A stretch of 33,013 bases of DNA, taken from positions 1-33,013 of the forward strand of contig JAUHXR010000066.1 in NCBI GenBank assembly GCA_030426845.1, read 5' to 3'. How positions within the stretch are numbered: the stretch's first letter is position 1; every line of letters starts with the position of its first letter. The position numbers and the translations under genes are program-made. Below the pieces are notes generated by a model that saw only the letters and a list, made by a program, of their open reading frames with translations, did no database searches and was not told the origin of the DNA. The DNA is from Polyangia bacterium (GTDB taxonomy: Bacteria > Myxococcota_A > Polyangia > Polyangiales > Sandaracinaceae). Positions 1,221 to 2,225 of this stretch are shown piece by piece.

Positions 1221-1250
1221 TTTATTGCACGCCGAGGCTCACCGCATCAA
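1221..1250 (-). promoter_or_regulatory. possible sigma-70-type promoter for the sigma-54 activator
   Basis: Read on the minus strand, TTGATG (1250-1245) is followed after 18 bases by AATAAA (1226-1221), with TG one base upstream as in an extended -10. This is the only AT-rich patch in the neighbourhood. Transcription would start near 1214, only a few bases before the ATG at 1210, giving an almost leaderless mRNA. Assigned by eye only. Confidence 0.4.
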
Positions 1251-1786
1251 CGCGCATCCTCGGCGACCCGCGCCTGGGCGAGCGCGCGGAGCGCCACCCG
1301 GCGGAGCGGGCGGTCGCTCGCGCGGCGGTTCACGAGGGCCAGCATCACGTCGACCCGCTCGGCGTCGAGGACGTCCTCGGGCGCCGGCGGTCCGTCGCGG
1401 AAGTTGAGCGGGCACCAGGTCACGTCGCCCCCGGGGACGCGGCCCTGAGCGGCGTCGGTCGGCAGCGTGCCCGCTGGGTAGCGCAGCGGCAGGCCCTGGG
1501 TGCGGCAGACGAGGGGGCGCGCGGGGTAGATCGCGCAGCGCCCGTCCGGCTCGAGCATCACGCAGGCGCCGGCCCGCGGCACGCGCTCGGCGAGGCGGGC
1601 GCGCGCCGCGGGCGACAGCGCCCGGAGCGCTCGCTCGATCGGCGCGGCCTCGACCTCGCTCACCTCCAGCTCCACCTGACAGCACGCCGAGCACCCGGCG
1701 CGGCAGGTGAGATCTCCACGCCGCGCCGCGACCGCTTCGGCGAAGCCGTCGACCTTCGCGCGGAGCGCGTCGTACTCGGAGCTCAT
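1247..1786 (-). CDS. YkgJ-family cysteine-cluster (metal-chelating) protein
   Basis: A 179-residue cytoplasmic protein with the conserved cysteines of the YkgJ zinc/iron-chelating family. An N-terminal CRAGCSACC cluster lies near residue 30, and a later segment has CVMLEPDGRCAIYPARP followed by LVCR, the usual C-x-x-Y-x-x-RP-x-x-CR pattern. The family is thought to coordinate a metal through these cysteines, but its biochemical role is poorly defined. An upstream in-frame start at 1924 exists, but residues encoded there look like read-through of the adjacent palindromic DNA. The ATG at 1786 places the Cys cluster at the normal distance from the N-terminus. The gene ends 36 bases before the activator gene on the same strand. 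Confidence 0.85.
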   Translation of the reverse strand: MSSEYDALRAKVDGFAEAVAARRGDLTCRAGCSACCQVELEVSEVEAAPIERALRALSPAARARLAERVPRAGACVMLEPDGRCAIYPARPLVCRTQGLPLRYPAGTLPTDAAQGRVPGGDVTWCPLNFRDGPPAPEDVLDAERVDVMLALVNRRASDRPLRRVALRALAQARVAEDAR

Positions 1787-1803
1787 GGCCCCGGCATAGC
1801 AGC

Positions 1804-1955
1804 CCGTTGAAGAACCTCCCCGCGCGCCTCGCGGCCGGGAGCCCGCGCCTGCGCGGCGCATCGCTCCCCGAGAATCCTCCGGGATTCCCTCGTCCCGCTG
1901 CGTCACGCAGGCCCGCCCTCGCAACCGCGACCCATCACGGTCGGTTCTTCAACGG
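1804..1955. repeat. 152-bp imperfect palindrome with 13-bp perfect terminal inverted repeats
   Basis: CCGTTGAAGAACC at 1804-1816 is exactly reverse-complementary to 1943-1955. The two halves also match internally: GCCTGCG-x-G-CGCA and GAATCC segments align with their counterparts on the other arm. The whole element could therefore fold into one long interrupted hairpin centred near 1880. It fills the space between the small exported-protein gene and the YkgJ gene and has no convincing ORF. It resembles a MITE or REP/ERIC-like palindromic element, or a large intercistronic RNA structure. No target-site duplication was identified. Confidence 0.75.
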
Positions 1956-1968
1956 CCTGCTCGCAGGC
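1955..1968 (-). terminator. hairpin just after the small exported-protein gene
   Basis: GCCTGC and GCAGGC are separated by two bases and end three bases from the stop codon at 1971. There is no T tract. The hairpin overlaps the outer edge of the palindromic element by one base. It could end or stabilise the minus-strand transcript. Confidence 0.35.
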
Positions 1969-1970
1969 GC

Positions 1971-2225
1971 TCAGAACGGAGGCGCGCGGCGGACCGACGC
2001 GCGGATCGCCCCGCGCGCGTCCCGGCGGAGCGGCGGCGGCTCCCACGGCACGCGGGAGCGCGGGATCACGTAGAAGCTGCGCGGCTGGCGCCCCTCCACG
2101 GTGATCTCGGAGCAGCGCAGCAGCCCCGGCTGGACCTCGACGCAGGTCGGACGATCGTCGGCCGCCGCGCCGGCGGGCAGGCCGGCCGCGCCCAGGAGCA
2201 GGAGGGCGAGGAGGGTATGTCGCAT
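1971..2225 (-). CDS. small exported protein of unknown function
   Basis: An 84-residue protein with a clear signal peptide: MRHTLLALLLLGAAGLPAG, followed by an AAA-type cleavage region near residue 22. The mature part is about 60 residues, with two cysteines near 28 and 38 that could form one disulfide, and an Arg/Pro-rich C-terminus. No lipobox is present and no family is recognised. The ATG at 2225 fits the signal peptide. It lies 60 bases downstream of the ModC-like gene on the same strand and could be the last gene of that transcript, but nothing in it suggests a transport role. Confidence 0.65.
   Translation of the reverse strand: MRHTLLALLLLGAAGLPAGAAADDRPTCVEVQPGLLRCSEITVEGRQPRSFYVIPRSRVPWEPPPLRRDARGAIRASVRRAPPF

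Follow-up and report, generated by a model that had tools for sequence, protein, structure and literature searches.

Foldback MITEs (miniature inverted-repeat transposable elements) such as Correia/NEMIS and ERIC are intergenic, palindromic over their whole length of 100-170 bp, and transcribed as a hairpin when they lie within an operon. They duplicate TA, unlike the element family described here, in which the duplication comprises 4 bp. Closer in description are the MITEs that belong to ISMac2, an IS1182-family insertion sequence of Methanosarcina acetivorans, which are given as 160 and 169 bp long (PMC3852290). The 160-bp form, with 14 copies, 26-bp inverted repeats and 4-bp direct repeats, resembles the present element in its length, long repeats, 4-bp duplication and IS1182-type partner; the likeness is one of description, and the ISMac2 MITEs differ in having an archaeal host and a tabulated partner (PMC3852290), whereas no partner was found in the genome studied here. 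ISPse1, also of the IS1182 family, is recorded with 4-bp repeats (PMC3281130). The target YTAR, given for insertion sequences of the IS5 group (PMC10359306), is also the target here, but the transposases found in this work score best against IS1182. The main text of a review of prokaryotic MITEs contains neither 'IS1182' nor 'Myxo' nor 'Planctomycet' (PMC10969869). Six end sequences of the elements had no occurrence in the literature text searched, and within the portions of the literature covered the sole match joining myxobacteria with miniature inverted-repeat transposable elements concerns Acidobacteria.

The locus lies in a stretch of 33,013 nucleotides, hereafter the window, and comprises the following features.

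1800..1959, plus strand: whole palindromic element, read as a MITE, 160 bp; borders common to the dispersed copies, sequence-model match 1800-1958
1800..1816, plus strand: left terminal inverted repeat CAGCCCGTTGAAGAACC
1943..1959, minus strand: right terminal inverted repeat, reading CAGGCCGTTGAAGAACC on the minus strand; one mismatch relative to the left end
1878..1881, no strand: loop TCCG, the hairpin tip of the predicted fold
1796..1799, no strand: left target-site 4-mer ATAG, decayed YTAR duplication (family consensus YTAR)
1960..1963, no strand: right target-site 4-mer CTCG, decayed YTAR duplication

The perfect 13-bp ends reported in the first-pass annotation (1804-1816, CCGTTGAAGAACC; 1943-1955, GGTTCTTCAACGG) are present, and so is the palindrome. 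Its extent of 152 bp (1804-1955) has to be revised, as the aligned dispersed copies place the true borders at 1800 and 1959, 4 bases wider on each side. In the family consensus the ends form a perfect 17-bp inverted repeat, CAGCCCGTTGAAGAACC, within which the window copy carries a single mismatch, at 1803/1956. The motif GTTGAAGAACC, with at most one mismatch, occurs in the window only at the two ends of the element (0.14 chance matches expected). The proposed single long hairpin is borne out by the predicted fold of -93.7 kcal/mol, compared to -71.7 for shuffled sequences (z -4.8; 0 of 200 shuffles equally stable). Of the two strands, the minus strand gives the more stable fold in the consensus of both this family and the sister family described below, for DNA as well as for RNA. 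The statement that the element has no ORF holds with the qualification that a mechanical 88-aa ORF (1807-2073) and the 5' extension of an ORF at 1247-1924 overlap it, neither of which shows any sign of being a gene.

A BLAST search of the same genome yielded 77 matches, corresponding to about 40 places plus self-complement matches, so that the dispersed copies expected of a mobile family are indeed there; most of the full-length copies are 88-97% identical. With a sequence model built from 20 copies, 50 places were found at E<=2.3e-16, 35 of which cover at least 149 of the 160 positions. The mean pairwise identity of 32 aligned near-full-length copies is 94% (84-99%), and the flanks of the dispersed copies are unrelated. 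Internally deleted short forms of 126, 92, 84 and 72 bp also occur. A second repeat, GGAGCTTGATTCGCTAC, stands beside three copies (in the flanks of L005, L013 and L060), and one flank is common to L013 and L018. No match for the window element was found in the plasmid collection.

The target duplication is 4 bp long and of the type YTAR. Among 36 two-ended copies the flanking 4-mers match exactly in 9, compared to 2.8 for re-paired flanks, and 107 of their 144 letters agree, compared to 80.7. A MITE of the IS630/Tc1 type would duplicate TA only, and TA does form the centre of the target. However, the outer bases of the 4-mers agree across the two sides as well, in 25 and 31 of 37 pairs versus 15.5 and 16.7 after shuffling (this position-by-position test includes one false pair, L039, which was dropped for the 36-copy test). 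Four bases are thus duplicated, and at the four loci with PF13358 that were found (genomes G005, G008 and G043) no such ends occur with 3 or fewer mismatches, which leaves an IS630/Tc1 origin hardly credible. As the duplication is exact in only 9 of 36 copies, most copies are not fresh. The window copy itself, judged from its sequence, is probably old or damaged, since it is flanked by ATAG on the left and by CTCG on the right, and its right end has also decayed.

The element was described as lying between two genes of the same strand, and both neighbours are indeed encoded on the minus strand.

1247..1786, minus strand: downstream gene for a CxxCxxCC (PF03692) protein, with 13 bp between its ATG and the element
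1971..2225, minus strand: upstream gene for a protein of 84 aa that has no Pfam match; its homologue adjoins the CxxCxxCC gene in G008

G008 belongs to another genus of the same family, and shares with the window the order ABC-transporter gene, small gene, CxxCxxCC gene and sigma-54 activator. At its junction from the small gene to the CxxCxxCC gene there is a gap of a few tens of bases without the element, an empty site that was aligned mainly via the genes and not base by base. In this family, 7 of 10 genomes carry the CxxCxxCC gene; apart from the window's genome, the small gene was found next to it only in G008, so that a single site could be compared. These data bear on the second suggestion of the first-pass annotation, a large mRNA structure. 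As a structured RNA or regulatory hairpin of the gene pair, kept for its effect on the mRNA, the element would account for the very stable fold, for the even greater stability, in the family consensus, of the minus strand, i.e. the transcribed direction for the neighbours, and for the 13 bp between its end and the CxxCxxCC start codon. The dispersed copies have other neighbours, however, and the G008 junction does without the element; no Rfam family was assigned, the two chance-level Rfam matches both lying outside the element, and individual pairs are not conserved across the sister families. A local RNA structure was therefore rejected on the grounds of dispersal and the empty site, and the RNA explanation in general is very improbable. 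No sigma-70-type promoter or intrinsic terminator was found in 1600-2400. A putative effect of the element on the mRNA of the downstream gene is possible.

Sequences with the same ends were sought in the genomes of about 85,000 species, in which at least 105 stretches were found. The end matches listed come from Myxococcales/Myxococcota, Planctomycetota, Verrucomicrobiota, Pseudomonas, Bradyrhizobium, Nitrosomonas and other records; many of these are again short elements flanked by YTAR, and some are complete insertion sequences. Two of the latter (L107, 1439 bp; L126, 1494 bp) have YTAR/CTAG duplications, two from Bradyrhizobium (L109 and L179, about 1528 bp) have CTAG on both sides, and so does a 1507-bp insertion sequence in G008 (L219), which encodes a 480-aa protein. 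The proteins of L219, L107 and L126, the three scanned, match DUF772 and DDE_Tnp_1. Their best NCBIfam model is IS1182, with 178-199 bits and thus under its cut-off of 270, and the second-best, IS5_4, is also under its cut-off; the partner is therefore named only "IS1182-like". Among 183 genomes of the order, 20 encode relatives of the L219 protein, G008 included. The window's genome gave 0 matches for the L219-type protein, PF01609, PF05598 and PF13358 in an assembly of 538 contigs that is 95% complete and from which repeats are easily lost.

The same ends also bear on the idea that the palindrome is of the REP/REPIN type and owes its movement to a RAYT (Y1) transposase. The intergenic position, the palindrome and the roughly 50 copies would suit such an origin, but REPs are described as 20-40 bp long (PMC3733652), a size that the 160-bp unit does not have, and the element shows 17-bp terminal repeats and target duplications and shares its ends with DDE insertion sequences. 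We consider this origin to have next to no probability. The element has the terminal repeats, the target duplication, the length of 160 bp without a transposase gene, the dispersed copies and the element-free site of a MITE, and its ends are common to the insertion sequences L107, L126 and L219, as in IS1182-derived MITEs. An autonomous partner was found in G008, of the same family, and not in the same genome; a partner in the same genome is not a strict requirement for a MITE, as MITEs outlive lost partners.

The suggestion of a non-autonomous mobile palindrome thus stands, on the dispersed copies with unrelated flanks, the target duplications, the empty site in G008 and the full insertion sequences elsewhere. 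At the level of sequence, the dispersal, the common ends, the target duplications, the empty site and the same-ended insertion sequences are established, and from these the family appears to have been moved by a transposase of the IS1182-like type. An IS1182-like DDE transposase would recognise the CAGCCCGTTGAAGAACC ends, mobilise the element and insert it at YTAR, which would result in the 4-bp duplication. The element is very probably a foldback-type non-autonomous MITE mobilised by such a transposase. IS1182-derived MITEs are already known, and the element is one more MITE family.

A sister family is present in the genomes G005 and G008. It differs in about 30% of the sequence, is 159 bp long and has retained the foldback over its whole length. 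The predicted fold of the window copy and that of the sister family have 35 pair columns in common; of 56 pairs, 5 are changed on both sides and kept and 16 are broken, and covariation across the sister families is weak. The pattern resembles that of a palindrome maintained as such more than that of a defined RNA. Many contigs of G005 and G008 stop within the element (e.g. L086:1-141 and the ends of L095 and L096), at a depth of about 134-141 bp or about 112-119 bp. As contigs stop inside copies at a near-constant depth, the element is a main cause of the assembly breaks in these two genomes.

Strong foldback was also seen elsewhere. Among 22 hand-picked short elements of other lineages that share these ends, at least 70% of the bases are paired arm to arm in nine (L108, L119, L123, L137, L140, L200, L206, L207 and L098), and the same applies to two Pseudomonas elements (L150 and L184); 8 of these 11 are 157-161 bp long. 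L119, L137, L200, L206 and L207 have related cores and so, separately, do L108, L150 and L184. Within such foldback groups, related cores extend across the phyla or genera of the records, e.g. Nitrosomonas and Pseudomonas. Matches to the Pseudomonas element L150 occur in 9 plasmid records; no match for the L137 element was found in the phage collection. In G043, a genome of another family (JAHBWH MAG), same-ended elements (L082:2508-2766, L145:407-665 and L176:1491-1769) contain internal direct repeats that are about 110 bp apart, and each repeat opens with the terminal sequence. One Myxococcales MAG carries a 141-bp family (L105, L106, L113, L114 and other CANJCO records) that is often found at contig ends and has terminal repeats that are themselves small hairpins, CAGGCCGTT-GAAG-AACGGCCTG and CAGGGTGTT-GAAA-AACACCCTG.

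Several incomplete copies are unusual and unexpected, and are the part of this work worth following. Eight left halves of the window's genome break off at consensus positions 82-84, only 0-2 nt beyond the loop (79-82); three sister-family copies end likewise.

L066:2460-2541, L067:2443-2525, L071:2453-2535, L073:2537-2619: tip-ended left halves
L286:515-597, L287:497-580, L288:514-592, L294:577-646: tip-ended left halves
L302:259-341, L306:274-356, L307:195-277: tip-ended left halves, sister family

In the window's genome, these are 8 of 14 left parts with an internal break, for which a rough model of evenly distributed breaks (5 of 130 positions) gives P ~1e-8. The other left parts counted were L039, L289, L078, L298, L064 and L076; L290 repeats L289 with the same flanks and was not counted separately. 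Excluded from the count were 16-bp end matches (L061, L077), internal pieces (L291, positions 9-71; L293, L292, L295, L299), internal deletions (L063, L065, L070, L074, L300), right parts (L036, L040, L060, L068, L072, L285, L296) and copies cut by contig ends (L022, L037, L038, L069, L075, L297). The eight tip-ended halves seem independent of each other, as they have no diagnostic changes in common; for the same reason, a half-element subfamily moving as a unit was not supported.

In the sister genomes, 8 places with partial copies were examined, chosen by hand among the matches listed; one of them, L301, is cut by a contig end. L302 and the pair L306/L307, which represent two loci, have their break at position 83 of the sister consensus, 2 nt past the loop. 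L306 and L307 come from two genomes assembled separately and share their flanks, which argues against an assembly artefact. No right half starting at the tip was found among the copies examined in the window's and the sister genomes. For L302, the other species of the genus has the empty site (L311), with flanks 98-99% identical. In the filled site a single target 4-mer, CTAA (where the empty site has TTGA), is followed by the left half and this by the right flank, which is about 5 bp short, with a few bases of unclear origin. Measured against the empty site, this copy has thus lost its right arm together with the right-hand duplication and some 5 bp. In the tip-ended copies L066 and L286 as well as in L039, which is broken at position 92, the same 4-mer stands on both sides, and the loss therefore stopped at the hairpin base. 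Exactly matching flanking 4-mers were found in 3 of 13 cases, with 0.6 expected (P 0.012).

From their end points, the half copies would be products of a cut at the tip of the hairpin; the leading alternative is one-ended transposition. SbcCD cuts hairpins at the 5' side of the loop. If the half copies arose by cutting, the palindrome would be extruded in vivo, mainly on the more stably folding minus strand, a hairpin nuclease such as SbcCD would nick it at the loop, the freed arm would be degraded in the 3'-to-5' direction back to the hairpin base, and the remaining arm would be joined to the flank. Such events would have recurred, always with the same polarity, in two genera and in two element families that have diverged. 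Were the minus-strand hairpin cut on the 5' side of its loop and the freed arm then degraded 3' to 5', the right arm would be lost and the left one kept, which fits the polarity. It is possible, if still doubtful, that the half copies are in this sense a natural record of hairpin-tip cutting, with in vivo extrusion mainly of the minus strand, a nuclease such as SbcCD and a fixed polarity. In E. coli work on this question, SbcCD is called the hairpin nuclease, and the fate of palindromes is addressed with an inserted palindrome (PMC3315005).

Overall, the element described here ties widespread foldback repeats, in records from Myxococcota, Planctomycetota, Pseudomonas and Nitrosomonas, to one type of insertion-sequence end. 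Of greater importance than the element itself are the half copies. Should they result from hairpin cutting, many examples of the fate of a long palindrome in the living cell would be present in natural genomes, and palindromic MITEs would be in-genome reporters of cruciform processing.
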